From: a virus
Length of the DNA: 30,914 bases
Virus record (IMG/VR): IMGVR_UViG_3300042090_002726
Span: 1 to 30,914 of that record
Reading direction: 5' to 3' (one strand)
The position numbers and the translations under genes are program-made. Positions 4,704-29,039 of the stretch are shown here, one piece after another. The number at the start of each line of letters is the position of its first letter. Positions within the stretch are counted from its first letter, which is position 1. The notes below the pieces were generated by a model that had not been told where the DNA came from, did no database searches, and saw only the letters and a list, made by a program, of their open reading frames with translations.

Positions 4704-5945
4704 TCACCCGTTCGCCGAGATCATGTTGGCGAGCGCCGCGACCTCCTGGTCGTAGTAGGAGTCGTTCTGGCTCGCGGTGTAGATGATGTGCTCCATCGGC
4801 ACCGGCCCCATCGGGTCGATCGACCAGTTCCAGATCCCCTGGCTGGTCTGCGACGAGGGGTTGAGCTCCGCGTCGAGCCAGCAGCGGCCGCCGACCAAAA
4901 AGCCGACCTTCTTCGCCCACTTGAACCAATCGTTGGCGCGGTTGGTCATGTCCTGGAGCAGTTGCAGCCCCGCCGGCTTGTCGACCGCCCACAGCGTCAC
5001 CTCGTCGAGCGCCTCGTAGACCTCGTCGAGGCAGGTGCGCACCGCCTCGAACATCCAGTTCGTGTCGGCGGAGAGGTTGCGGTTGCCCCAGCGGCGGAAG
5101 CCGCCGTAGGTCAGGCCGGCCTGCTGCGCGGCGTTGATGATGGTGGTGATGCGCGCGGCGTTGAGCGTGTTGGCTTCGCAGTCGGGGTCGCTCATCGCCC
5201 AGTCGATCGGGTTGGAGACGCCGCCGACGCCTTGCAGCGCCTGGTTCGACGGCGAGAACCAGAAGCCGAGGTTCTCATGCACGTAGGCGGTCAAGCCCGC
5301 CATCGAGGCCGACGCGGGCAGCGCGACATAGGCCGAGGTCGCCGTGTCCCACACCATCACGTTCGGATAGAACAGCAGCAGGCGATCGGACGAGTAGAGC
5401 GCGGCGGCGGCGACGCAGTCCTCGTCGCTGGTCGACGGGCAGTCGGCGTAGACGCGGCCTCTAAGCCGCTCCGCCACCGGCAGCGCCGCGGTGACCACCG
5501 GGTTGGCGAGCGGGCCGCCCCCGGTCGCCGTCGGCAGGATCGAGGTGTAGCCGGGGGCGATGATGGTGCGCGGCGGCACGCCGAGCTTCGCGCGCGCGCC
5601 GAGCAGCGCGTAGAGGCCCGTCTTCGCAGCCTGCGAGCCGATGATGTTGCTCATCGTCGTGTCGGGATCGGCCGCATCGGCGACCCTCACCACCACCACC
5701 TGGCCCGCGCCCTCGGCGTAGCATTGCTGCACCGAGCTGAGCAGGGTGCCCTCGACGCCGAGCTTCAGCGCCGCGGTCGGCTGCGAGTCGAGCAGCACCG
5801 GCTCGTTGAGCGGAAACGTCGCCTCCTCGGCCGACGCCGCGGTGCCGATCAGGCCGATCACGCCCGAGGGGTTGAGGGAGACCGGCTGCGTCGCGGACTC
5901 GACCTCGTCGACCTCGACGCCATGGAGGAAAATGGTGGAGCTCAT
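4704..5945 (-). CDS. FI: Major tail sheath protein FI (P2 gpFI family)
   Basis: A 413-residue sheath protein. It begins MSSTIFLHGVEVDEVESATQP. It has the sheath core APGYTSILPTATGG, an internal domain with RGRVYADCP and SSDRLLLFYPNV, and the conserved C-terminal GGFRRWGNRNLS and LVGGRCWLDAELN. Sheath subunits contract on infection and drive the tube through the envelope. The ATG at 5945 overlaps the stop of the upstream hydrolase gene (ATGA). The GAGG Shine-Dalgarno lies inside a perfect 14-bp palindrome. The gene is first after a predicted activator-dependent promoter at 6000-6046. Confidence 0.94.
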   Translation of the reverse strand: MSSTIFLHGVEVDEVESATQPVSLNPSGVIGLIGTAASAEEATFPLNEPVLLDSQPTAALKLGVEGTLLSSVQQCYAEGAGQVVVVRVADAADPDTTMSNIIGSQAAKTGLYALLGARAKLGVPPRTIIAPGYTSILPTATGGGPLANPVVTAALPVAERLRGRVYADCPSTSDEDCVAAAALYSSDRLLLFYPNVMVWDTATSAYVALPASASMAGLTAYVHENLGFWFSPSNQALQGVGGVSNPIDWAMSDPDCEANTLNAARITTIINAAQQAGLTYGGFRRWGNRNLSADTNWMFEAVRTCLDEVYEALDEVTLWAVDKPAGLQLLQDMTNRANDWFKWAKKVGFLVGGRCWLDAELNPSSQTSQGIWNWSIDPMGPVPMEHIIYTASQNDSYYDQEVAALANMISANG

Positions 5946-6547
5946 GAAGCCTCGCGAGGCTGGTTTAAAGGCCGCTTGACGGCGTTTCGAAACAGGGCGA
6001 ACTTGGCTTTCGTTCGCCCCGCTCGGCGAGGGTGAACAACTTCACCAGCAGCCCCGGCTTCGACGAACGCGATGACGCTGGCGCGCGCGATCACGCTTAG
6101 CGCCACGCGGCCGCCCCAGTTGCCCGACAGCAACCGGATCGATCCGTCCGGCTCGATCCCTTCGACGAAGCCGACGTGTCCGGCTGGTCCGCGCCGGGTG
6201 CGCATCACCGCCAGCGCGCCGATGCGCGGGCCGGCGAGCCGCGGGCCGTAGCGCAGCGCCGACGCGGCCGCGCGGCTGGCGAGCGGCGGCCGGCCGACGC
6301 GCCTGAGCACGAAGCTGACGAAGTCGGCGCACCACGGGCCGACCGTGCCGACGGGGTTGCGCGCGCCGAGCCAGCGCGCCGCCTCGACCAGCGCCGCGCT
6401 TTCCGTCGCCGCGACCATCGCCGTCGCGCTCGCGGCGGCCGGCTGCAGCGTCGGCGGCGCCGGCGCGCGGCCGGCCGCCGCGGCGTCGGCCGCCCCCGTC
6501 AGCGCCGCCAGCGCGAGGCCGAGCGCAAGACTGAATGGCCGGTTCAC
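5942..6547 (-). CDS. Secreted CHAP/NlpC-type cysteine hydrolase
   Basis: A 201-residue protein with a signal peptide (NRPFSLALGLALAALTGAADA). The cysteine hydrolase core has WCADFVSFVLRRVGRP (catalytic Cys) and PAGHVGFVEG (His), with LLSGNWGGRVALSVI afterwards. This resembles the TIGR02594/CHAP-like amidase-peptidase group. I chose GTG at 6547 because AAAGGAGG lies four bases upstream. An ATG at 6562 overlaps the previous stop and is the alternative. It probably cuts peptidoglycan, either in tail-mediated entry or exported late. The last 35 or so residues (from AGEVVHPRRAG) are outside the catalytic core and span the third activator dyad, so this tail may be coding sequence constrained by a promoter. 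Position between fibre and sheath genes is unusual relative to P2. Confidence 0.75.
   Translation of the reverse strand: MNRPFSLALGLALAALTGAADAAAAGRAPAPPTLQPAAASATAMVAATESAALVEAARWLGARNPVGTVGPWCADFVSFVLRRVGRPPLASRAAASALRYGPRLAGPRIGALAVMRTRRGPAGHVGFVEGIEPDGSIRLLSGNWGGRVALSVIARASVIAFVEAGAAGEVVHPRRAGRTKAKFALFRNAVKRPLNQPREAS
5948..5961. repeat. Perfect 14-bp palindrome covering the sheath ribosome binding site
   Basis: AGCCTCGCGAGGCT ends two bases before the sheath ATG. The GAGG Shine-Dalgarno is in its 3' arm, so a hairpin could hide it when the region is not being translated. The upstream gene's stop overlaps the ATG, so ribosomes finishing that gene would open it. This suggests translational coupling; the regulatory role is inferred. 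Confidence 0.5.
6000..6046 (-). promoter_or_regulatory. Predicted activator-dependent late promoter for the sheath-tail operon
   Basis: The dyad GGTGAAGTTGTTCACC (6031-6046) is followed 25 bp downstream by the -10-like hexamer CAAGTT (6000-6005). No -35 box is visible, as expected for a Mor/C-type activated promoter. The dyad is identical in sequence to the one upstream of the lysis genes. It lies within the 3' end of the hydrolase gene and directly before FI, FII, E, tape measure, U, X and D. Confidence 0.6.
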
Positions 6548-6558
6548 GCGTCCTCCTT

Positions 6559-7236
6559 TCATGCCGCCATCAGCAGCGCGGCGGGGCGATAGCGGCGCCG
6601 CGCGCGCGAGGCGGCGGCGAGCGAAGCGGCTTCGAGCGTCGCGACCGCCGCGGCGCTCGCCGGCGCCGAGGCCGCCGCTGCGAGCGTCGCGTCGGCGAGC
6701 GCCAGCGCCAGCGTGGCCGTCGCCGGCGCCTGGACGCCGGTCGCGGCGAGCGTCGCGCCGACGATGGCGGAAGGTCCGCCCCCGAGCGGGAGAGCGCCGA
6801 GGGCGAAGCCGCCGAGCGGCGGCGAGCCGGGCGAAGCGCCGAGATCGATCGTCGCCGAGCCCGTCGCCGCCGCCGCGCCGGCCGCCGCGGCGCCTGCGTC
6901 GTCGAGCGTCGCGACCAGCGCGCTGGAGGCGACCGCCTGGTCGGCCGAGGCCAGCGCCGCAGCGTCGAGCGTCGGCGCGGCGCAAGCGCCGGCGAGCGCC
7001 GCGCCGGCCGCCGCGAGCGTCGCCGGCGCGAGCGCCGCGGCGGCCGCGGCGTTAGCTGGCGCGGAAGCGGCGGCCGAGAGCGTCGCCGCGCCGGTCGTCG
7101 CCGAGGCCGCGCCGGTCGCCGGCGCGCAAGCGCTGGCGGAGAGCGTCGCGGCGACGAGCGCGCCGCCGGCGAGCGTCCCGCCCGAGGTCGCGCTCGCGCC
7201 GAGCGGCAGATGGCCGAGGGGCGCGAACCCGAGCAT
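6559..7236 (-). CDS. Ala-rich repetitive tail-associated protein
   Basis: A 225-residue protein, about half alanine, made of degenerate repeats with an ATLxAxxxAPA theme. It has two copies of a GFAPLGHLPLG-like motif: one at the start and one near residue 145 (GGFALGALPLGGG). Similar short 'LGxxxLG' N-termini and ATL-type repeats occur in phage tail-fibre-region proteins. I infer a surface-exposed fibre or appendage component. The ATG at 7236 is 3 nt past the TAG of the chaperone gene and no Shine-Dalgarno is evident, so translation is probably coupled. The stop overlaps the hydrolase gene's alternative ATG. A long frame on the other strand covers the same DNA but is Arg-rich and not credible. 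The N-terminal motif and exact operon junctions argue for this frame. Confidence 0.6.
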   Translation of the reverse strand: MLGFAPLGHLPLGASATSGGTLAGGALVAATLSASACAPATGAASATTGAATLSAAASAPANAAAAAALAPATLAAAGAALAGACAAPTLDAAALASADQAVASSALVATLDDAGAAAAGAAAATGSATIDLGASPGSPPLGGFALGALPLGGGPSAIVGATLAATGVQAPATATLALALADATLAAAASAPASAAAVATLEAASLAAASRARRRYRPAALLMAA

Positions 7237-7239
7237 CGG

Positions 7240-8025
7240 CTAGGTCAGGCCGGCGACGGCGACGGTCGGCGCCGTCAGCGTCAGGCCCGCGGCGTTGGCT
7301 GCGGCGACGACATTCGCCAGCGCGCTTTCGAAGACCGTCAGCGCCGCCTGCAACGCGTCGCTCGACGGCGCCGCCGGCGCCGCCTGCTCGAAGGCCGTCA
7401 GCGCCGCCGACAGCGCGAACAGCGCCGCCGAGACGGCGACCACGCGCTGGGCGAGCGTCGGCGCGTCGAGCCCCAGCACGGTCGCCCAATTGACGAACGC
7501 CGTCTTCGCCGGGTCCACGCTCGGCGCCGCGGCGCCGGGGCCGACCATGGCGGCGGCGACGATGTAGGCGTTCTGGTGGGTCGCGCTCGACGCGACCTGC
7601 TCAGTCAACGCCGCGCAGGCGACGCGCGCCGCCGCGATCGCGGCGGCGGCGAGCATGGCGAGCGTCGGCGAAACCGAGCCGCTGGCGACGAGATCGCCGT
7701 CGTCGGCGTCGAGCGCCAGCGCCCCGATGGCCGCGGGCGGCGTCGCGCTGAGGCCCGAAGCGGCCGGGTCGCCGAGCGCCGTAACGATCACCGCCGCGCC
7801 GTCGGGCGCCCACCAGGTCTCGCCGCGATGGTCGACGATGAGTCTCCACGCGCCGCCGGCGAACACGGCCGCCTGCCGCGCGCCCGCCGTCGGCGGCGCC
7901 ATCGTGGTCGAATGGGCCGGATAGAGCCAGACGCCCGGCTCCAGCGGCGATGGGTCGGCGGTCGACGGGCCGAGGTAAGAGCCGTCAGCGGCGCTGTAGT
8001 TGTAGACGGCGGGAGCGTCGGACAA
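7240..8025 (-). CDS. Tail fibre assembly-like protein
   Basis: A 261-residue protein that starts at TTG with AAGGA about eight bases upstream. The N-terminus has the tail-fibre-assembly (chaperone) pattern: YNYSAADGSYLGPS, DPSPLEPGVWLYPAHSTTMAPP, then FAGGAWRLIVDHRGETWW. The C-terminal 150 residues are Ala-rich helices not typical of the short chaperones. Tail fibre assembly proteins help fold and mount fibre tips. It follows a tail-collar gene, the usual context for such a partner. The N-terminal similarity is clear. The role of the helical extension is unknown; it may be a fused structural part. Confidence 0.68.
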   Translation of the reverse strand: MSDAPAVYNYSAADGSYLGPSTADPSPLEPGVWLYPAHSTTMAPPTAGARQAAVFAGGAWRLIVDHRGETWWAPDGAAVIVTALGDPAASGLSATPPAAIGALALDADDGDLVASGSVSPTLAMLAAAAIAAARVACAALTEQVASSATHQNAYIVAAAMVGPGAAAPSVDPAKTAFVNWATVLGLDAPTLAQRVVAVSAALFALSAALTAFEQAAPAAPSSDALQAALTVFESALANVVAAANAAGLTLTAPTVAVAGLT

Positions 8026-8037
8026 GCGCGGGGTCCT

Positions 8038-8892
8038 TCAGTAGCGGATGCAGACCAGCCAGGCGACGTTTTTCGGCGCCGTCTCGGCCGAGCCGGCGGC
8101 GCCGACGCTGATGCCGGTGGTCGCGGAATTGACGGTGAGGCCTGTCGTGGCGGTCCCAGTGTTCTGAGCCGCCCCGGTGCCGTTCGTCTGCGCGACTGCC
8201 ACGCCGCCGCCGATCGAACCTAAGGTCTCGGTGTGTCTATGGCCCGGATCGGTCACGTTGTGCGCGTGGCCTCCGTCGGTGACGCTGTGCGCGTGCGAAG
8301 CGTACATGTCGGCCTGGTAGGAGCCGAGCGCGCGCCCGCTGTCGAGGCCGCGGCCGTTGTCGAGGCCGCGAATGAACACGCCGCGGGCGTCCGGAATGCG
8401 AAAGGTGGACCCGTCGCCCGGCGAGAATTGCCCCGAGCTCCACGCCGCGTCGGACGCCGCCAGGTTGCCGCTGGCCTGCGCGTAGACCCACAGCGCGGCG
8501 TAGGCCGCGCGCGAGAGCAGCGCGCCGTTTAGGGCGATCGTCCCGGGCGGCGGCGTCGCGCCCGGCGCGATGACGATCTCGCCCGCAGCCGGCAGATCCG
8601 GCGCCAGCGGCGAGACGAACGCCAACGCGGCCGCCGTCGCCGATATCGCCGAGCCGGAGTTGGAAGAGGCGAGCACGGTCGCGCGCGTCAACGTCGGGCC
8701 GGTCGACGAATAGCCGCCGTAGCCGATCTCCCAGTTCGCGCCATCCTCGATGACGTAGGAGACGACGTCGCCGTTATTGACGCCCGCGGCGGCGAAGGTT
8801 TGATAGCCGGCGACCGCGCCGCCGAGCGTGATCGCGCCGGTTCCCGGCGCGCTCGCCGCCGTCATCTTGGCGCGATTGACCAGCTTGGCCAT
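8038..8892 (-). CDS. Tail collar domain receptor-binding protein
   Basis: A 284-residue fibre-type protein. The N-terminal half contains VNNGDVVSYVIEDGANWEIGYG and TLTRATVLASSNSG, a common phage tail attachment module. Around residues 100-185 is a tail-collar domain: APGATPPPGTIALNGALLS, AYAALWVYA, FRIPDARGVFIRG. His-rich repeats follow (SHAHSVTDGGHAHNVTDPGHRH), of a kind that binds metal in trimeric fibre stalks. The C-terminal APKNVAWLVCIRY is the typical end of collar proteins. It probably forms the distal receptor-binding tip. The ATG at 8892 comes one base past the previous TGA. Confidence 0.85.
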   Translation of the reverse strand: MAKLVNRAKMTAASAPGTGAITLGGAVAGYQTFAAAGVNNGDVVSYVIEDGANWEIGYGGYSSTGPTLTRATVLASSNSGSAISATAAALAFVSPLAPDLPAAGEIVIAPGATPPPGTIALNGALLSRAAYAALWVYAQASGNLAASDAAWSSGQFSPGDGSTFRIPDARGVFIRGLDNGRGLDSGRALGSYQADMYASHAHSVTDGGHAHNVTDPGHRHTETLGSIGGGVAVAQTNGTGAAQNTGTATTGLTVNSATTGISVGAAGSAETAPKNVAWLVCIRY

Positions 8893-8893
8893 C

Positions 8894-9295
8894 TCAAGCG
8901 TTGCCGTCGGTCAGCGTGAACGAGGTGATTTGGATGTTCTGCCCGGCGGCGAAGGTCGGGTTGTCGAACGAAAGGTCGCCCGAACCCTGGCCGACCGCGC
9001 CCTGCATGTGGCAGGTCGCGCCGGTCGAGTCCATGACGCGGAAATGGCCGGCCGTCCCTGCCGCGCTGGCCGTTCCCGTCCATGGTCCGCTCGCCTGGGT
9101 TTCCGAGCCGCCGCTCGCCGCGTTCTCCTCGGCCGCGGGCAATGTCAGCGTCGCCAGCAGCGCGCCGGTCTCGCTCGCCGCGCAGTTCGCTGGCGGCGCG
9201 CCGGTGTAGAGCAAGAGCTTCGCCGAAGCGCCGATGGTGGCGACAATGGCGTTGAGCCGCGCGTTGCGCACGGCGGTCGAAAATTGGATGCTCAC
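8894..9295 (-). CDS. Small tail structural protein, fibre region
   Basis: A 133-residue protein beginning at GTG with GGAG seven bases upstream (SIQFSTAVRNARLNAIVATIG). It contains KLLLYTGAPPANCAA and FRVMDSTGATCHMQGAVG, and ends NIQITSFTLTDGNA. This β-rich pattern is familiar from unnamed phage structural proteins that sit next to collar fibres. It lies downstream of the REP-like repeat and 2 nt before the collar gene. I know no more specific function; a fibre adaptor or base is the likely role. Confidence 0.75.
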   Translation of the reverse strand: MSIQFSTAVRNARLNAIVATIGASAKLLLYTGAPPANCAASETGALLATLTLPAAEENAASGGSETQASGPWTGTASAAGTAGHFRVMDSTGATCHMQGAVGQGSGDLSFDNPTFAAGQNIQITSFTLTDGNA

Positions 9296-9330
9296 CTGAC
9301 ATCTCCATCAGCGCGCCGCGGCGCGATCTC

Positions 9331-9446
9331 CCTTCTCCCCGCTTGCGGGGAGAAGGTTAGGATGAGGGGCGGGGCGTGCGGGAGGCGGCGCGGCGAAGCG
9401 ACCGGCCCCTCACCCCAACCCTCTCCCCGCCTCGGCGGGGAGAGGG
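9331..9446. repeat. Rhizobiales-type palindromic REP-like element
   Basis: Two strong hairpins face each other. One is CCTTCTCCCCGC-tt-GCGGGGAGAAGG (9331-9356). The other is CCCTCTCCCCGC-ctcg-GCGGGGAGAGGG (9419-9446). Between them TGAGGGGC (9363-9370) pairs with GCCCCTCA (9405-9412). The whole forms one long imperfect inverted repeat of about 116 bp in the only sizeable gap of the fibre block. Such CCCTCACCC...CTCTCCCCGC palindromes are scattered in host chromosomes of this order. Its presence inside a phage operon suggests acquisition from the host, and it could also act as a transcription or mRNA-stability element. Confidence 0.8.
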
Positions 9447-9463
9447 GGCGCCGCGCGAGCGGC

Positions 9464-9994
9464 TCACGCATAGGCTCCTCCCACGAGGTTGCCGAAGATC
9501 GTCTGGCCGCCGTCGAAGCTGTCGAACACCAGGCAGTCGACCGCGCCGGCGCTTGTCGACAGCTCGGGCGCCGCGCCGTCGGGCCACTTGACGCCAGCGA
9601 AGCTCGCCGTTCGTCCGCCGGTCGCATCCTGCGCCAGGTAGACGACGACGCGCTGGTCGCGCCCGGTCGTCGGCCAGCGGGCGAAGGCGAACGCCGCCGC
9701 GCCCTCAAGCGTGAAGCCGAAGGTGTTGCCCTGCGAGCAGTCGATCGAAGTCGCGCCGCTCGCCGGCTGGAAAGACAGCGCGCGCGTCGTCGCCGCCGCG
9801 TCGGCGAGGCCACGCGCGGCGACCGAAGCGCCCGCGCCGCTCGCCGCGACGGAAGCGCCGGCGACCGGAGAGACGCTGGCGACGGCGTTGGCGCCGTTGG
9901 CCTGCAACGCGCTGGGCGACGCCGCGCCGATCGTCAGCGCCGCGGCCGCGGCGGCGACGACGAGCGGCGAAGGCGCGGTCGCGATCGTCAGCAT
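9464..9994 (-). CDS. Fibre-region structural protein with Ala-rich N-terminus
   Basis: A 176-residue protein. Residues 1-70 are Ala/Ser/Gly-rich (APSPLVVAAAAAALTIGAAS). The C-terminal 100 residues form a β-type domain with GNTFGFTLEGAAAFAFARWP, VVVYLAQDATGGRTASF and LVFDSFDGGQTIFGNLVGG. The latter is a familiar phage tail or fibre terminal module. The ATG at 9994 overlaps the upstream gene by 7 nt. The REP-like element begins 17 bases past its stop. Likely a minor fibre or baseplate component; no precise function can be assigned. Confidence 0.7.
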   Translation of the reverse strand: MLTIATAPSPLVVAAAAAALTIGAASPSALQANGANAVASVSPVAGASVAASGAGASVAARGLADAAATTRALSFQPASGATSIDCSQGNTFGFTLEGAAAFAFARWPTTGRDQRVVVYLAQDATGGRTASFAGVKWPDGAAPELSTSAGAVDCLVFDSFDGGQTIFGNLVGGAYA

Positions 9995-24019: not shown

Positions 24020-24414
24020 AGCAGCACCCCTTGCGTGGGGTCCGCCAGCGCAGCGGCCGTCGCCTTCTTCGTTCTCGGACGCCTCGGCCGCTCGCGCGGC
24101 GAGAAGTCCGCTAGCGCCCCAAGGCCGGCGGCCACGCGCCGTTCGGCGGCGGCCTCGGCGAGATCCTGCGCGAGCATGACCGTCGCAGTCGCGAGCTGGC
24201 GGCGATACTTGTGCGCGAGACGCACCAGGTGGACGCGCTGGCGCTCGCTGAAGTCCTTTTCGCGCGAATGCTCGGCGATGAACGCCATGTCGCGCGCGAA
24301 CCGCTTGTCCCAGCAGCCCGGCAGGAACGAGCAACCGGCCAGCGCTCGCGCAATCAGCGCATATCTTGACCGATCATCCGCCGGCGCCGGCGCGGCTTGT
24401 CCCTCGGCCAACAT
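24016..24414 (-). CDS. Unknown protein upstream of terminase
   Basis: A 132-residue protein with a compact helical middle: SRYALIARALAGCSFLPGCWDKRFARDMAFI, then SERQRVHLVRLAHKYRRQLA. The C-terminus is basic (RERPRRPRTKKA). The ATG at 24414 shares a base with the gp27 stop; a GTG one codon earlier is an alternative. I have seen this helical pattern in unnamed proteins near the terminase of alphaproteobacterial Mu-like phages. A DNA- or packaging-related role is a guess. Confidence 0.78.
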   Translation of the reverse strand: MLAEGQAAPAPADDRSRYALIARALAGCSFLPGCWDKRFARDMAFIAEHSREKDFSERQRVHLVRLAHKYRRQLATATVMLAQDLAEAAAERRVAAGLGALADFSPRERPRRPRTKKATAAALADPTQGVLL

Positions 24415-24992
24415 CACGACGCCCTCTGGATGACGCCGAGCTGCTCCATGATCCGCGCGCGCGTCTCGGCGGTGATGCCCTTCTCCCTGGCGACCTTGTC
24501 GACCGCCGCGCCGACCTGGCGGCTCGCCGCGTCGAGCGCGCGGCGCTTGGCCTCGCTGGAGATCGTCTGCGCCTCGACGCTGTGCTTGAGCGCGCGCGCC
24601 AGCTCCATCGCCCCCTTGGGCGTGAAGGAGCCGGCGTCGGCGTCGAGCATTTCCGTGATCAGCGTCTTGATCAATTCTCCGATGACGACGTTGGCCTCGT
24701 CCATCCGCTCGGCGGTGAACTGCGGCGCCAGGCCCTCGAACAGCGCGCGGCGCTCGGAAAGCCGCGCCGCCGCCGCGGCGACGCGCATCGCCTTGCGGTT
24801 GAAGGCGCTCTTGCTGATCAGCGGGCAGCCCTTGTCGGCGAGGCGCCCGTTGAGCTCGGAGAGGATGTCGGCCTGGGTCCGGCTGCGCTGGTTGAGCTCG
24901 CCCATCGCCCAGATGATGTCGTCCTGCGCCTCTTCGGGAGCGAGGTCGAGCGACGACAACCGCCCGCGGCCGAGACGGTCGGCGGTTCCCAT
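24414..24992 (-). CDS. Mu gp27-like protein (DUF3486, small terminase candidate)
   Basis: A 192-residue DUF3486-type protein: DRLGRGRLSSLDLAPEEAQDDIIWAM, then RTQADILSELNGRLADKGCPLISKSAFNRKAMR, which looks like a helix-turn-helix. The C-terminal half is coiled and helical (TSSEAKRRALDAASRQVG region). It is regarded as the small terminase or DNA-recognition partner of gp28 by position and HTH. It begins just past the gp26-like stop. Confidence 0.9.
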   Translation of the reverse strand: MGTADRLGRGRLSSLDLAPEEAQDDIIWAMGELNQRSRTQADILSELNGRLADKGCPLISKSAFNRKAMRVAAAAARLSERRALFEGLAPQFTAERMDEANVVIGELIKTLITEMLDADAGSFTPKGAMELARALKHSVEAQTISSEAKRRALDAASRQVGAAVDKVAREKGITAETRARIMEQLGVIQRAS

Positions 24993-24994
24993 CT

Positions 24995-25297
24995 TCAGAT
25001 CTCCGGCGGCGAGGGCCGCTTGACGCCGTCCAGCGCGATGCGCCGCTCGACATGATCGAGGCCGCGGAGCGTGATTTCGGCGATCAGCACCGAGCCCGCT
25101 TCGGTCAGATGGATCGCGCCGACGTCAGCGAGGAAGCGCAATTGCGCGTGCAGCCAATCGCGCGTGCGGTTGATCGCCCAGCGTTCGGCCAGCTCGTCGC
25201 GCAGCAGCGACGAATTGAGCCGCCGGTCTGACTGCTCGGCGAGCATGCGCAACACGACGAGGCGCGCTTCGCGCTCCATGATCTCGGAAAGGCTCAC
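24995..25297 (-). CDS. Mu gp26-like winged-helix protein
   Basis: A 100-residue protein starting at GTG, with a GTGA overlap with the DUF2730 gene. It contains EREARLVVLRMLAEQSDRRLNSSLLRDELAERW, then RDWLHAQLRFLADVGAIHL and VLIAEITLRGLDHVER. This resembles the small winged-helix proteins at the gp26 position of Mu-like phages. It may bind DNA or serve in packaging. The segment EREARLVVLRML and the VERRIALDGVKRP ending fit the family. Confidence 0.85.
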   Translation of the reverse strand: MSLSEIMEREARLVVLRMLAEQSDRRLNSSLLRDELAERWAINRTRDWLHAQLRFLADVGAIHLTEAGSVLIAEITLRGLDHVERRIALDGVKRPSPPEI

Positions 25298-25614
25298 CGT
25301 CCGTGCTCCAGAAGGTTCTCCTGCAATCGCTCGGCGATCGCCTGGATCGGCGCGACGCGCTCGACGATGACGGCGAGCTGGCCCTTCATCTCCGTCATCG
25401 ACAGTTGCAGCTCGTGCACCGTCTGGACGCCGGGCAGGTGCGCGACCTCGGTCTCCAACTTCGCCAACCGCGTCTCGTGCCGGTTCTTCGTATCGATCAG
25501 TTCCCCGACGTCGCGCCGGTTGCGGGCGGTGAGAATGGCGTAGACCGAAAGCGCCAGCGCCCCCACCGAGCCGAGCGCGGTCGCCGCCTGCCACAGTTCG
25601 CTCCATTCCAGCAT
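25294..25614 (-). CDS. Mu gp25-like membrane-anchored coiled-coil protein (DUF2730)
   Basis: A 106-residue protein. The N-terminal segment (residues 8-29, QAATALGSVGALALSVYAIL) is a transmembrane anchor. RNRRDVGELIDTKNRHETRLAKLETEVAHLP follows as a coiled coil, with more helix to the end. This matches DUF2730 at the Mu gp25 position. The topology (inner-membrane anchor and periplasmic coiled coil) would suit an inner-membrane spanin component. A lipoprotein lies nearby at 25962-26369, which could be the outer partner. Confidence 0.82.
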   Translation of the reverse strand: MLEWSELWQAATALGSVGALALSVYAILTARNRRDVGELIDTKNRHETRLAKLETEVAHLPGVQTVHELQLSMTEMKGQLAVIVERVAPIQAIAERLQENLLEHGR

Positions 25615-25629
25615 CGCGTCCCCTCGCTC

Positions 25630-25935
25630 TCACCCTTCGTCGCGCTGGCCGACATAGGTCCGCTCGCCCGCGCGCGGATAGGTCCCCGGGTCGCCGGGGA
25701 CCGCCGGCGACGAGACCGCCAGCAGCAGGCCCGCCAGCGCGAGGATCGGGCCGACCTCGGCGGCGTAGGGCGCGCCGAAGGCGGCGAGCAGCGCCGCGAC
25801 ATCCTCGATCGCCTTCGCGTCGTCCGCGAGATCGCCGAAGCGCTCGTCGTAGGCGCGTTTGAGATCGGCGATCGGAAAGGCCGCCCACCCCTTGAGCCCG
25901 GCCTCGACCTCGGCGACGGAAATGGTCAACGCCAT
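25630..25935 (-). CDS. Unknown phage protein with C-terminal hydrophobic segment
   Basis: A 101-residue protein with a good AGGAG site before its ATG. It starts ALTISVAEVEAGLKGWAAFPIADLKRAYDERFGDLADDA. Near residues 62-80 is a hydrophobic segment (GPILALAGLLLAVSSPAV), and it ends in a polar tail (GDPGTYPRAGERTYVGQRD). A tail-anchored membrane protein in the lysis/gp25 area is a fair description. I do not recognise the family by name. Confidence 0.72.
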   Translation of the reverse strand: MALTISVAEVEAGLKGWAAFPIADLKRAYDERFGDLADDAKAIEDVAALLAAFGAPYAAEVGPILALAGLLLAVSSPAVPGDPGTYPRAGERTYVGQRDEG

Positions 25936-25961
25936 GGCGGTTCTCCTGCCGCGGCGAGCGC

Positions 25962-26369
25962 TTAGCCGCCGGACGCGGCTGCGGTCGTCGACGAGGGCGG
26001 CGCCGCCGTGACCGTGGTCGACTGGCCGAGCGCGGCGCAGATGTCCTTCACCGCGACGGTGGCGACGCTCGCGGCGACGCTCTTCTGCAGGAAGGCGTTC
26101 ACCTTCGCCTCGGCGCTGGAGTCGTTGATGATCGCCGCGGCGAGCGCGTAGGCGCCGCATTGATAGGGCGCGAGCAACTTCGCCTGCGCCACCGCGTTGC
26201 CGATCAGGGTGTTGTTGACCGTGATCAGCGCGTTGTTGAGCGCAACCACGTCCTGCGTCGTCGTCGTCAGATTGCTGTCGAACGCGGTCTGCTGCGCGCT
26301 CGAGCACGAGGAAAGCGCCATCCCCGCAACAAACGCGGCGGCGACGGCGGCGGTTTTCAGGAACGACAT
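25962..26369 (-). CDS. Lipoprotein with Ser/Thr-rich tail
   Basis: A 135-residue protein with an export signal and lipobox: KTAAVAAAFVAGMALSSCSS, Cys at residue 22. The mature part is helical (QDVVALNNALITVNNTLIG and LLAPYQCGAYALAAAII, then VAVKDICAALGQ). The last 20 residues are Thr/Ser/Ala-rich. The ATG at 26369 lies inside the last codons of the lipase gene (13-nt overlap), showing tight coupling. It is in the lysis neighbourhood, so an outer-membrane spanin-like or lysis-timing role is possible. It is not Pro-rich like classic o-spanins. Confidence 0.75.
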   Translation of the reverse strand: MSFLKTAAVAAAFVAGMALSSCSSAQQTAFDSNLTTTTQDVVALNNALITVNNTLIGNAVAQAKLLAPYQCGAYALAAAIINDSSAEAKVNAFLQKSVAASVATVAVKDICAALGQSTTVTAAPPSSTTAAASGG

Positions 26370-27028
26370 GGGTTCATCCTTTCGGCTTCCAAAGCTTGAA
26401 CATCGGCCCGATAGAGTTGAAGGGCGTGATCGCCGATCTTGGCCGCCAGTTCGTCGATCGCGCCCGGCGGCTCGGGCAGCGGCGCGCCGATCGCCACGCC
26501 GCGCGTCGCGTGCCTGAAAATCGGCCGCGGCGGAACGGTCGGAACCGGGTCGCCGCGACGGCGGTATTCGACGCACTCGAGCGTCCCACGCGCGACGAGC
26601 CGGCGAAGCGCGAAGTTGAGCGCGAAGGCGACGCGCGGCGCGCCGAAAGTCACCAGCCGCGGCTGCGGCGATCGGCCTTCGGTGACATGCAGTCCGGCGA
26701 GCCCCAGCGCCAGCGCGCCGCCGAGGCTGTGGCCGGTGAAGACGATGCGCTTGTCGGGAGGCAACTCGCGCCGGATCGCCGCCCACAGGTCGCGCGCGCC
26801 GGCGCCGAAGCCGTGGTGGCACCAGCCGATCTCGTCGAAGCGCGCCGGGCGCCAGTCGAGGTCGCGCAGCCAGTCGGCGAGATCGTCGAGATGGGTGCCG
26901 GGGCAGACGACGACCAGCTCCCGGCCGCGCGGCAGGAGGCAGCAACGCGCGTCGACCGAAACCGTCACGCTCTGCGGCCCGCGATAGGCAAGCGCGCAGA
27001 TATCGGCGAGGTCGGCGTGCGACAGCAT
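26357..27028 (-). CDS. Class-3 lipase / α/β-hydrolase
   Basis: A 223-residue lipase of the class-3 type. The nucleophile elbow is VFTGHSLGGALALGLAG (Ser at about residue 103), preceded by LVVVCPGTHLDDLADWL, a lipase oxyanion-loop stretch. LVTFGAPRVAF is the expected following motif, then a possible Asp in RRGDPVPTVPP and a His in KIGDHALQLY. No signal peptide is visible, so it would act in the cytoplasm or be released at lysis. It sits in the phage lysis block, between the DUF2158-like gene and the lipoprotein. Membrane lipid breakdown during lysis, or a carried fitness gene, are both possible. Not typical of Mu or P2. Confidence 0.85.
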   Translation of the reverse strand: MLSHADLADICALAYRGPQSVTVSVDARCCLLPRGRELVVVCPGTHLDDLADWLRDLDWRPARFDEIGWCHHGFGAGARDLWAAIRRELPPDKRIVFTGHSLGGALALGLAGLHVTEGRSPQPRLVTFGAPRVAFALNFALRRLVARGTLECVEYRRRGDPVPTVPPRPIFRHATRGVAIGAPLPEPPGAIDELAAKIGDHALQLYRADVQALEAERMNPCRS

Positions 27029-27032
27029 GACG

Positions 27033-27317
27033 TCAGCTCGCCTCGCTCGCGCGCCGGCGCACCAGCGTCAACTCGCGCGGATCGAAGTCGAACTCGACCA
27101 GATCGTCGTCGGCGTTGTGCCACTGGCAGCCGATCTTGCCGCTGTCGGCGGCGCGAACGGTCATGTGCACGCGGTCCGAGTTCAACCGAACGATGTCGCC
27201 GACGGCGAACGAGCGCGCGGCGCTGCTCTGGGCCGCCAGCGTCCCCGTCGTCTCTATCCGCGGTTCGGGATGCGAGGCGCCCGGGTCGCTCACGGCGCCG
27301 GCCAGCGCGCGCGCCAT
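27033..27317 (-). CDS. DUF2158 (YodC-like) small protein
   Basis: A 94-residue protein with the DUF2158 core at residues 35-85: SFAVGDIVRLNSDRVHMTVRAADSGKIGCQWH, then VEFDFDPRELTLVRR. This fold resembles a small β-barrel seen in bacterial YodC-type proteins. The N-terminal 30 residues are variable. It starts one base past the holin-like stop and ends 4 nt before the lipase. Function unknown. Confidence 0.78.
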   Translation of the reverse strand: MARALAGAVSDPGASHPEPRIETTGTLAAQSSAARSFAVGDIVRLNSDRVHMTVRAADSGKIGCQWHNADDDLVEFDFDPRELTLVRRRASEAS

Positions 27318-27318
27318 C

Positions 27319-27507
27319 TCACTTTTGCCCGATCGCGGTGCTGGTCACGGCGCGCAGGCCGACGACGACCAGGCCGAGCGCCGCCGCGACCCCCGGCGAA
27401 ATGCCGAGCGTCGTCCAATCGACGCCGCAGAAATAGGTGACCGCGGCCGGCGCGACGGCGACGAACAGGCCGAAGGCGACGGTCCGGAAACCCTTGAGCG
27501 CTTTCAT
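27319..27507 (-). CDS. Holin-like membrane protein
   Basis: A 62-residue protein with two membrane segments: FRTVAFGLFVAVAPAAVTYF (residues 7-26) and VAAALGLVVVGLRAVTST (residues 40-57). It has a basic N-terminus and a good AGGAG before the ATG. It follows the endolysin across a terminator-like hairpin, the position expected for a holin or pinholin. Small two-segment phage membrane proteins of this type are often called holins; timing function is inferred. Confidence 0.7.
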   Translation of the reverse strand: MKALKGFRTVAFGLFVAVAPAAVTYFCGVDWTTLGISPGVAAALGLVVVGLRAVTSTAIGQK

Positions 27508-27537
27508 GACGAACTCCTGCTTTGAAGGGGGTTGAAA

Positions 27538-27562
27538 GCCGCCGCGAAGGCGGCGCTTTTTT
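27538..27562. terminator. Hairpin between endolysin and holin genes, T-run on the plus strand
   Basis: GCCGCC-gcgaa-GGCGGC (27538-27554) is followed on the plus strand by GC and six T residues, a classic intrinsic terminator in that direction. On the minus strand the same stem is preceded by AAAAAA and followed by TTT, so weak bidirectional action is possible. It may block antisense transcription into the endolysin gene, or partly separate endolysin and holin expression. Confidence 0.6.
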
Positions 27563-28404
27563 CACGCGGTCGCCTTATCGAGAGCGACCCAGGTCGCCGG
27601 ATTGATATCGTTGGTGACTGGCAGCCCGACGGCGCGCTGGAAGACGCCGAGCGCGGCGCGGGTCGCGCCGCCTTCCGTTCCGTCGACGCCGAGCGCCGGG
27701 TTCGCGCCGACCTTGCGCAGCCGCCATTGCAGGTCGGCGATCGAGCCGTGCGGATAGCCCGATGCGGTCGGGTGCGCATGCGTGTCGCCGTCCTCGTTGC
27801 GTGGGCTCCCGCCATGCGAGGGCGTCGGCTCGACGTCGGGCGGCAGTTCCACCTGGTGCGGGCCCGGCAGGCCATGCAGCGCCCAGGTCGGCAGCGGGCC
27901 GTCGCCGAAGGCGGCGTACTCCGCCCTGACGTAGCCTTCGAACATCGTCCACGTCGCGGAGCCGATCGCGCAGATGTCGTCGTGATTGCCGCCCGCCGCG
28001 CCGAGATCGTGGTGCATGCAATAGCCGCGCCCCTGGCCGCCGACCGCATGCTGGCAGGGGATGCCGTAGAAGCGCAGCAGCCACGCGACCCGCTTCGCGA
28101 GTGCGCGGAGGGTGACGTCGGGGATGCCTTTGGCGACGAAACCGGGAACCTCGATCGAGACGCCGCGCCCGTTGAAGGCGCACTCGGCCCACGCCTTCAT
28201 CGACAGCGGGACGAGCTGGGTATCCTCTGTCCCGTCGGCATTCATGCAGATGTGCGCCGAGGCCTTCACCGCCGGCTTACACAGCCACGCGACCGAGCCT
28301 TCGTACCCGCCCTCCATGTCATGCACGATGACGAGGTCGTGCGCGATGAGCGCAGGCGTGTAGTTCGGCGACGGGACTTGCTTGACGGGGGCCAATTGGG
28401 TCAC
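27562..28404 (-). CDS. N-acetylmuramoyl-L-alanine amidase endolysin with peptidoglycan-binding domain
   Basis: A 280-residue endolysin. The amidase_2-type domain (about residues 15-190) has DLVIVHDMEGGYEGS (first His), KASAHICMNADG, and YCMHHDLGAAGGNHDDI, with His/Asp ligands for zinc. A Pro/His-rich linker follows (about residues 195-225). A peptidoglycan-binding domain covers residues 225-280: DLQWRLRKVGANPALGVDG and TRAALGVFQRAVGLP. It starts at GTG, 4 nt past the stop of a tiny ORF. No signal peptide is seen, so it needs the holin. It is the first main gene after the lysis-operon promoter. Confidence 0.92.
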   Translation of the reverse strand: MTQLAPVKQVPSPNYTPALIAHDLVIVHDMEGGYEGSVAWLCKPAVKASAHICMNADGTEDTQLVPLSMKAWAECAFNGRGVSIEVPGFVAKGIPDVTLRALAKRVAWLLRFYGIPCQHAVGGQGRGYCMHHDLGAAGGNHDDICAIGSATWTMFEGYVRAEYAAFGDGPLPTWALHGLPGPHQVELPPDVEPTPSHGGSPRNEDGDTHAHPTASGYPHGSIADLQWRLRKVGANPALGVDGTEGGATRAALGVFQRAVGLPVTNDINPATWVALDKATA

Positions 28405-28408
28405 GGGT

Positions 28409-28504
28409 TCACATCCTCAGCATGATCTGGACGACGAGCCAGGCGACGGCGAGCGCCTCGACGAGATCGGGCGGCCGGAAGGATGCGCTGATGTCGAAGG
28501 GCAT
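28409..28504 (-). CDS. Possible 31-residue membrane peptide ahead of the endolysin
   Basis: A short ORF, MPFDISASFRPPDLVEALAV then AWLVVQIMLRM, with a hydrophobic C-terminal half able to span a membrane. It ends 4 nt before the endolysin GTG and starts about 35 bases past the expected transcription start. The ribosome site (CGGAGC) is too close to be good. It may be a leader peptide or a small lysis protein. Confidence 0.4.
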   Translation of the reverse strand: MPFDISASFRPPDLVEALAVAWLVVQIMLRM

Positions 28505-28546
28505 GCTCCGCTCCGCGCCGACGCCGCCTGGCGGCTGTCGCGACGA

Positions 28547-28592
28547 GGATTAGGAGCGGCGTCGTCCCGAAAGCATGGTGAACAACTTCACC
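28547..28592 (-). promoter_or_regulatory. Predicted activator-dependent promoter for the lysis operon
   Basis: The dyad GGTGAAGTTGTTCACC (28577-28592) is followed 24 bp downstream by a -10-like TAATCC (28547-28552), without a -35 box. It lies 31 bases past the mor stop, as expected for the middle promoter that Mor opens in Mu. The dyad centre would be about 45 bases upstream of the start site, close to the -43.5 I recall for Mor in Mu. A short hairpin (28605-28618) stands between mor and the dyad. Confidence 0.65.
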
Positions 28593-28622
28593 CCTGCGAT
28601 CGGTCGAGGCGAGCCTCGTGGT

Positions 28623-29039
28623 TTAGCGCCGCGCTTCGCCTTTGCAAAGCACGCTAAAGAGATCGGGCTGCGGCGACGTCTCGCGCAACTGCGCCTTCGC
28701 CTTGAACACGGCGCGGCGGGTCACCGCCGCCATCGCGGCGATCTCATTGGCCGACAGCTTGCCTTCGCGGATCGCCTCGCGGATGCGCCGCGCGCGCGCG
28801 TTGCGGCCCTGGCCCGAGACCGGGTCGGCGGGCAGGTCGATCAGCTCGCCGCCGTAGAGATCGCAGATCAGCGCCGCGCCCTTCTCGCCCATCGCCGCCG
28901 TCAGCCACGGCGCGGCGCGCGGGTTGCGGGGAACCGAAATTCGCAAGCCCCCGCGCGCCCTCGCCAGGCCGAGCGCCGCTTCCAGGCCCGCGCCTTCGGC
29001 GATCTCGCGATAGAGGTTGGCGAGCCAAACGTATCTCAT
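28623..29039 (-). CDS. mor: Mor-family middle/late transcription activator
   Basis: A 138-residue Mor/C-family protein. The dimerisation part has YREIAEGAGLEAALGLARARGGLRISVP, then LTAAMGEKGAALICDLYGGELIDLP. The C-terminal HTH has IREAIREGKLSANEIAAMAAVTRRAVFKAK. In Mu, Mor binds a dyad upstream of the middle promoter and recruits RNA polymerase where no -35 box exists. Here the gene is last in the early unit, and 31 bases beyond its stop lies the first of three matching dyads. The ATG at 29039 is one base past the upstream TGA. I see only one activator gene, so this one may serve both the Mor and C roles. Confidence 0.9.
   Translation of the reverse strand: MRYVWLANLYREIAEGAGLEAALGLARARGGLRISVPRNPRAAPWLTAAMGEKGAALICDLYGGELIDLPADPVSGQGRNARARRIREAIREGKLSANEIAAMAAVTRRAVFKAKAQLRETSPQPDLFSVLCKGEARR

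Follow-up and report, generated by a model that had tools for sequence, protein, structure and literature searches.

In a viral record of 30,914 bases (IMG/VR record IMGVR_UViG_3300042090_002726, positions 1 to 30,914; this whole stretch is called the window below), we find a class-3 lipase gene and an overlapping lipoprotein gene set between the endolysin and the gp25 homologue of a Mu-like phage. We judge the case evenly balanced for reading this block as a lysis cassette in which a holin-released lipase would act on phospholipid and the lipoprotein would be an outer-membrane auxiliary. The window is assigned to the Mu-like phages by its portal (Portal_Mu, 5e-105) and gp27 (Phage_Mu_Gp27, 7e-28), both encoded on the minus strand, and it probably comes from a phage of Gram-negative bacteria. 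Read 5' to 3' on that strand, the row consists of a 31 amino acid (aa) peptide with a transmembrane (TM) segment, an amidase, a two-TM holin candidate, a DUF2158-like protein, the class-3 lipase, the lipoprotein, a 101-aa open reading frame (ORF), gp25/DUF2730, gp26 and gp27. From the holin candidate to gp27 the genes are 1-26 nt apart, lipase and lipoprotein excepted, which share 13 nt; the gap between amidase and holin candidate is 54 nt. This row is more than chance, as other records show the named genes, except the 101-aa ORF, in an unchanged order. An initial annotation had named the endolysin, holin, DUF2158, lipase, lipoprotein and gp25 genes, each of which we find in its place on the minus strand; it had passed over the 101-aa ORF (25935-25630) and the 31-aa TM peptide (28504-28410).

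The identity of the lipase (26357 to 27028, minus strand; 223 aa) as a class-3 enzyme is convincing, and acyl-ester hydrolysis is its predicted activity. It matches Lipase_3 (PF01764; 3.8e-15) with 56.5 bits against a curated cut-off of 22, and phrog_21992 ("esterase/lipase") at 4e-27. The triad Ser101-Asp160-His201 is invariant in all 16 lipase sequences, window included, and the GxSxG motif reads GHSLG in 15 of them and GHSMW in L036. An AlphaFold model built from the 16 sequences (predicted local distance difference test score, pLDDT, 84) resembles Thermomyces lipase 6xok (Z 22.2, root mean square deviation 2.3 over 189 residues) and plant phospholipase A1 (Z 18.4). Asp160 aligns with the Asp of the NDIVP motif of Thermomyces lipase, which we take to be the catalytic Asp of that enzyme. 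Fold, triad and GHSLG motif are common to the fungal class-3 lipases, feruloyl esterases, plant phospholipase A1 and the window enzyme; unlike the fungal and plant enzymes, the window lipase is short, shows no secretion signal and sits in a phage lysis cassette. Judged by eye, none of the 16 lipases has a signal peptide. Against L003, the nearest distinct relative (lipase 88% identical) and our reference for the ratio of nonsynonymous to synonymous substitution rates (dN/dS), the ratio is 0.32 for the lipase, the same as for the amidase, and the lipase is under purifying selection. Across the amidase, holin candidate, DUF2158, lipase, lipoprotein and gp25 genes it ranges from 0.18 to 0.62.

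The place of the lipase beside an endolysin is conserved. A search with the lipase alignment gave 16 loci, 14 of which have an amidase-type endolysin upstream; these counts include near-duplicates (the pairs L014/L015 and L025/L026) and L013, which together with L002, L005, L029 and L047 represents a single contig that is a near-identical twin of the window and not independent of it. The upstream amidase is divergent in L020, L025 and L026 (profile E approximately 1e-11), and a lipase also stands beside a divergent amidase in L009. One of the two misses, L027, lies at a contig edge: the sequence begins 380 bases ahead of the lipase, which is seemingly split over two frames. The other, L028 (1599-2291), is a longer Lipase_3 protein with a TM gene and an M15-type peptidase nearby; it was scored as a miss because it is truncated, ending soon after GHSLG. 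In the reverse direction, an amidase search found 21 loci on 20 viral contigs, and 14 of these contigs, a number that counts the twin and one near-duplicate pair, have the lipase; one contig, L046, ends approximately 300 bases past the amidase. Of the 16 lipase loci, 11 match the lipoprotein profile, and a lipoprotein search returned eight loci, all with the lipase upstream (the twin and five distinct cassettes, two seen twice).

Bacterial genomes hold the same arrangement: an amidase scan found at least three loci, two of them with the lipase, in records titled Hyphomicrobiales or Rhizobiales (L037, L039) and Proteobacteria (L038). In the metagenome-assembled genome (MAG) of L039 the lipase family has three members. 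Two have an amidase upstream (in L087 with a glycosyltransferase-like gene between), and the third (L088) adjoins a glucosaminidase and a TM protein. The association with endolysins persists in lipases down to 40% identity, and across 13 records lipase identity tracks amidase identity (Spearman 0.45, Mantel p 0.007), a covariation which shared phage ancestry may partly explain. The assignment of the lipase to the lysis block in the initial annotation is therefore borne out by its position in many relatives, its company with two divergent amidases and a glucosaminidase, and an in-frame lipase-holin ORF in L058. Other searches for the lipase were less productive. A profile scan of genome contigs with the lipase alignment matched 261 stretches, none of them a relative, and INPHARED searches with three lipases gave remote weak matches or nothing. 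For one such weak match, the XacN1 lipase, no lysis gene is annotated in the stretch shown; in Shewanella phage QDWS a remote lipase match lies approximately 3 kb from the endolysin.

The lipoprotein (25962 to 26369, minus strand; 135 aa) was first described as starting inside the lipase stop. The overlap stands, and the site can be given more precisely: its ATG, preceded by AAAGGA, lies 10 nt ahead of the lipase stop codon. Its lipobox is LSSC with Ser at +2, and by the Lol rule Ser at +2 favours the outer membrane, so that lipidation and outer-membrane sorting, as in an outer-membrane spanin (o-spanin), are predicted. It is the sole ORF of the window to pass a strict six-frame lipobox scan. 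A relaxed pattern adds four frames, one on the minus strand in the tail region (6559-7236) and three on the plus strand, which we take as chance. In all nine relatives that carry the lipoprotein family, its lipobox match is the only one on the plus strand of the locus. Three Cys, which in the window are the lipobox Cys and the internal Cys 71 and Cys 111, are invariant in ten of ten sequences, window included, and the lipobox of L020 and L023 is a non-canonical PAGC. The dN/dS of the lipoprotein is 0.30 against L003. No protein family matched it, and the "phages" search was empty even at E 1. Its C-terminus is rich in Ser, Thr, Ala and Pro and has no TM segment of the kind expected beside the lipobox in a unimolecular spanin; the stretch 97-115, which holds K, D and C, passes only the loose TM threshold of 1.3. 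In L062 (reverse complement, 1601-2092), a lipase-less Mu-like prophage stretch, holin-like and lipobox segments share one open frame.

We find no spanin pair in the lysis block, in agreement with the initial annotation, which had seen no obvious spanin genes. Our first signal-anchor scan (threshold 1.6), which was used on the relatives, missed the Mu gp23 control. A looser scan, which covered the window and two controls, recovers the spanins of both Mu (gp23 with an orientation tie, gp23.1, and also gp25 as N-out) and POA1180 (gp54 as N-in and an overlapping lipobox frame, VHGC). In the lysis block of the window it gives only gp25 (N-out) and an internal fragment of the lipase, and thus no N-in, C-out inner-membrane partner with a periplasmic domain. 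Outside the block the window has further N-in calls, 7240-7548 among them, which fall within other genes and are read as chance. In POA1180, an isolated Ochrobactrum phage, the overlapping spanin-like pair lies between endolysin and DUF2730, where the window has lipase and lipoprotein. The VHGC frame of POA1180 (L089, 4427-4750) overlaps gp54 and begins upstream of the annotated gp55, and we read it as an o-spanin-like gene whose start was set wrongly in the annotation; gp54, its i-spanin-like (inner-membrane spanin) partner, is annotated as exonuclease SbcC.

The inner-membrane coiled-coil protein, which the initial annotation had counted, with amidase, holin, lipase and lipoprotein, into a set that could jointly attack all three envelope layers, is the Mu gp25 homologue (25294 to 25614, minus strand; DUF2730, PF10805 8e-11; 37.5% identity over 56 aa to Mu gp25). 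Mu gp25 is annotated "releasin" in AF083977. An N-terminal TM segment is predicted, and the charge rule places it N-out and C-in, the topology given for the family by Chamblee et al. (PMC9239132). The coiled coil would therefore be cytoplasmic, so that this part of the initial reading is not supported, and a role as i-spanin was dropped on account of the predicted N-out topology. According to the same study, Mu gp25 frees a signal-arrest-release (SAR) endolysin, and the family also accompanies cytoplasmic endolysins. The window amidase has no hydrophobic N-terminal segment and no TM segment at threshold 1.3; the missing SAR partner lowers the case for a releasin function and leaves family membership untouched.

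We propose the following course of events. Expressed late, amidase and lipase, both cytoplasmic, would build up in the infected cell and exit through the holin lesion. The amidase would cut peptidoglycan, and the lipase would hydrolyse phospholipid acyl esters in the exposed membranes, most likely in the two periplasm-facing leaflets, the inner one of the outer membrane and the outer one of the inner membrane. The lipoprotein, made from the overlapping frame, would sit in the outer membrane as a local destabiliser or docking partner, and the envelope would give way without a classical two-component spanin.

Several observations weigh against this proposal. Five of the 20 amidase contigs (L043, L044, L049, L053/L057, L059) have no lipase of this family though their sequence continues, nor is a clear spanin pair visible in them; RS1 and ThpS-P1 also have no lipase, lipobox match or i-spanin (the last judged by eye). 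Among lipase-bearing relatives, the 1.6 scan reveals possible i-spanins: an N-in TM/coiled-coil protein beside the lipoprotein in L022 (8335-8700) and an 88-aa N-in TM protein in L011 (4654-4920). The lipase therefore does not simply alternate with a spanin, and a clean alternation of the two, which we had considered, was dropped on account of the lipase-less relatives and L022. Among the points against the proposal, the lipase-less cassettes with no clear spanin pair and the possible i-spanin of L022 weigh most. The lipoprotein family is absent from the lipase cassettes of L019, L021, L054, L058 and L039, and the first three have instead a secreted Cys protein whose site reads PASC or PAGC. 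In the lipase-less L043, L057 and L062 we find lipoproteins of other kinds that also have internal Cys, that of L043 being a 40-aa protein that could be a small o-spanin. Cys lipoproteins are thus a shared theme of these cassettes and not a strict partner of the lipase. Finally, the 30.9-kb record may not hold the whole genome, and the outer membrane may be handled by the lipoprotein, by something unseen or by no dedicated protein.

It is possible, if unlikely, that the lipoprotein is itself the outer-membrane disruptor, o-spanin-like with a new fold and an unrecognised partner, and that the lipase only speeds particle release, as LysB does. The singular lipobox in the window and in the nine relatives, the invariant internal Cys pair, the small Cys lipoproteins of the lipase-less L043, L057 and L062, and the N-in TM proteins near the lipoprotein in L022 and L011 are all consistent with this explanation, and disulfides are stressed in the sections on two-component spanins of Kongari et al. 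(PMC6139136). However, the block of the window offers neither an N-in, C-out partner nor a C-terminal TM segment of the unimolecular type, the structure model of the lipoprotein is unusable (pLDDT 42), and its PHROG spanin matches are at chance level (best E 0.038).

We regard as improbable that the lipase attacks the cytoplasmic membrane from within the cell, speeding up the holin or taking its place. The lack of a visible signal peptide would suit such a role, as would the arrangement in L058 (7608-8456), where the lipase frame runs stop-free into a 65-aa domain that shares 51% identity with the L011 holin candidate across 39 residues. The holin candidates of these cassettes are themselves weakly supported: that of the window (27319 to 27507, minus strand; 62 aa) is named for its two hydrophobic segments, its position and a weak relation to the L011 protein, itself related to the domain fused in L058, and its sole PHROG holin match is at chance level (phrog_443, E 0.99). 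However, membrane damage before virion assembly would be lethal unless timed, and an internal ATG in L058 (8259), with AAGAGGA upstream, may yield a free holin as well.

More doubtful still is a cargo for lysogenic conversion or competition, with the lipase as toxin and the lipoprotein as immunity or superinfection factor. Lipase effectors are known to pair with lipoprotein immunities; the lipase model does match a lipase effector of the type VI secretion system (T6SS) with its immunity protein (9cys, Z 13.1), and the lipoprotein family was found only together with the lipase, in the eight loci above. Yet 9cys scores far below the fungal lipases, several lipase cassettes are without this lipoprotein family, and in many relatives the lipase occupies a fixed position, bounded by endolysin and gp25. 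The tight spacing from holin candidate to gp27 speaks against it as well, and a simple scan of 24400-28700 found no sigma-70-like site in the block, other promoter types being outside its scope. Least probable is a mosaic cargo for lipid remodelling or a neutral passenger, which would fit the failure to find the lipase in five of 20 similar cassettes and in RS1, POA1180 and ThpS-P1, but not the persistence of the endolysin association in distant lipases or the covariation of lipase and amidase, shared ancestry perhaps accounting for part of the latter.

Returning to the holin-released lipase with an auxiliary lipoprotein, we compared this arrangement with known systems. Lipid hydrolases in lysis cassettes are already known (LysB) or proposed (the phage WO patatin). 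The lytic cassette proposed for phage WO (PMC9203015) is the nearest precedent: a lipid hydrolase adjoins a holin-like protein, the host is alphaproteobacterial and canonical spanins are unrecognised, as here. Phage WO has a patatin (PLA2-like) and no canonical endolysin, whereas the window has a class-3 lipase plus an amidase; both cassettes are known as proposals. Some WO variants carry a phospholipase D (PLD)-family endonuclease, and the window has a PLD-like gene (30772-30236). This minus-strand gene (PLDc_2, 3e-19) encodes a signal-peptide-like N-terminus, and its product comes close to NucT/DrmC-type models, under their cut-offs. Mycobacteriophage LysB (PMC5707550) is a mycolyl-arabinogalactan esterase; the window enzyme is a Lipase_3 protein in a Gram-negative setting, and we claim no shared sequence family. 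By analogy of gene position alone, a LysB-like need of the lipase for efficient progeny release may be argued. With Mu (gp22-gp25; PMC9239132, AF083977) the window has in common the order gp25/DUF2730, gp26, terminase, but the SAR endolysin of Mu and its gp23/gp23.1 spanins contrast with a cytoplasmic amidase, a lipase, a lipoprotein and no spanin pair that we could find in the window's lysis block. Two-component and unimolecular spanin systems (PMC6139136) likewise have a lipoprotein in the lysis cassette; the window differs in having an extra lipase and no detected i-spanin or C-terminal TM segment.

Spanins were not found in 91 of 677 phages (Kongari et al., Table 1, PMC6139136), and PMC12819732 poses it as an open question if phages that lack spanins have disruptins or other proteins that disrupt the outer membrane. 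The cassette offers a concrete candidate for such a disruptor, with an intact active site. Among the best matches in the open-access literature, none that we saw reports a class-3 lipase among the lysis genes of a Gram-negative phage; PMC8951688 proved unrelated. The place that the lipase keeps in related phages suggests an enzymatic aid to membrane breaking at lysis, one that is little explored. Should lysis turn out to depend on the lipase, there is a further class of outer-membrane breaker; otherwise the conservation of a lipase next to endolysins still calls for an explanation.

It is tempting to generalise, as a tentative and rather doubtful idea, that a set of Hyphomicrobiales phages breaks the outer membrane by a holin-released class-3 lipase and an outer-membrane lipoprotein in place of spanins, a Gram-negative counterpart of LysB in a cassette that moves between different phages. 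The MAG of L039 holds Mu-like large terminases 76-78% identical to that of the window, which points to Hyphomicrobiales, and we infer that the host of the window phage probably belongs to this order. At 1e-10 the lipase profile matches 21 of 397 genomes of the order, and the 20 besides the L039 MAG score at most 72 bits. The Mu large terminase was not found in lipase-bearing records of 52.7, 54.4, 64.3 and 38.7 kb (the last being L058); terminase-less records may be fragments, so this absence is suggestive only. Searches of the non-Mu lipase-bearing records with terminase and portal families gave no type. The 52.7-kb record has tail sheath and baseplate genes, and there (L063, G001; 8446-9678) a reverse transcriptase (RVT_1 8e-17, phrog_1423) stands beside a tail protein, an arrangement that recalls a diversity-generating retroelement.

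The remaining genes of the row, all on the minus strand, frame the lipase on both sides. The 31-aa single-TM peptide (28410 to 28504) lies directly upstream of the amidase; it is 90% identical in L003 and near-duplicates and 52% in L024, and its membership in the cassette is uncertain. The endolysin (27562 to 28404) is an N-acetylmuramoyl-L-alanine amidase (PF01510, Amidase_2, 8e-12; phrog_1493 endolysin, 2e-12) with a C-terminal peptidoglycan-binding domain (PF01471, PG_binding_1, 4e-9). A second peptidoglycan-hydrolase-like protein (CHAP/TIGR02594) is encoded at 5942-6985 on the same strand, and L008 encodes a CHAP protein a short way upstream of its amidase. The DUF2158-like protein (27033 to 27317) matches phrog_3261 (6e-8), but its PF09926 match (7e-4; 19.7 bits) falls under the gathering threshold of 22.3. 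Counted as part of the lysis set in the initial annotation, it is present in the window and undetected in several lipase cassettes, so that we dropped it as a fixed lysis component. Between lipoprotein and gp25 the slot is mosaic, with the 101-aa ORF (25630 to 25935; no family match) in the window and a small two-Cys protein starting MAAP in several relatives. The ORF was found only in the near-identical twin, and BLASTP detected no similarity to the ORF at the comparable place in L054. Downstream of gp25 follow the Mu gp26-like protein (24995 to 25279; phrog_436 6e-24, NF050184 1e-28), first of the packaging genes, and the gp27 small terminase (24414 to 24992; PF11985 7e-28); the large terminase is 97% identical to that of L004. 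The scan for transcription signals gave two terminator-like matches, both between amidase and holin candidate and on the plus strand, a number equal to the chance rate. The same gap holds an all-GC hairpin of six pairs (27538-27555), with a T-run only on the plus strand.

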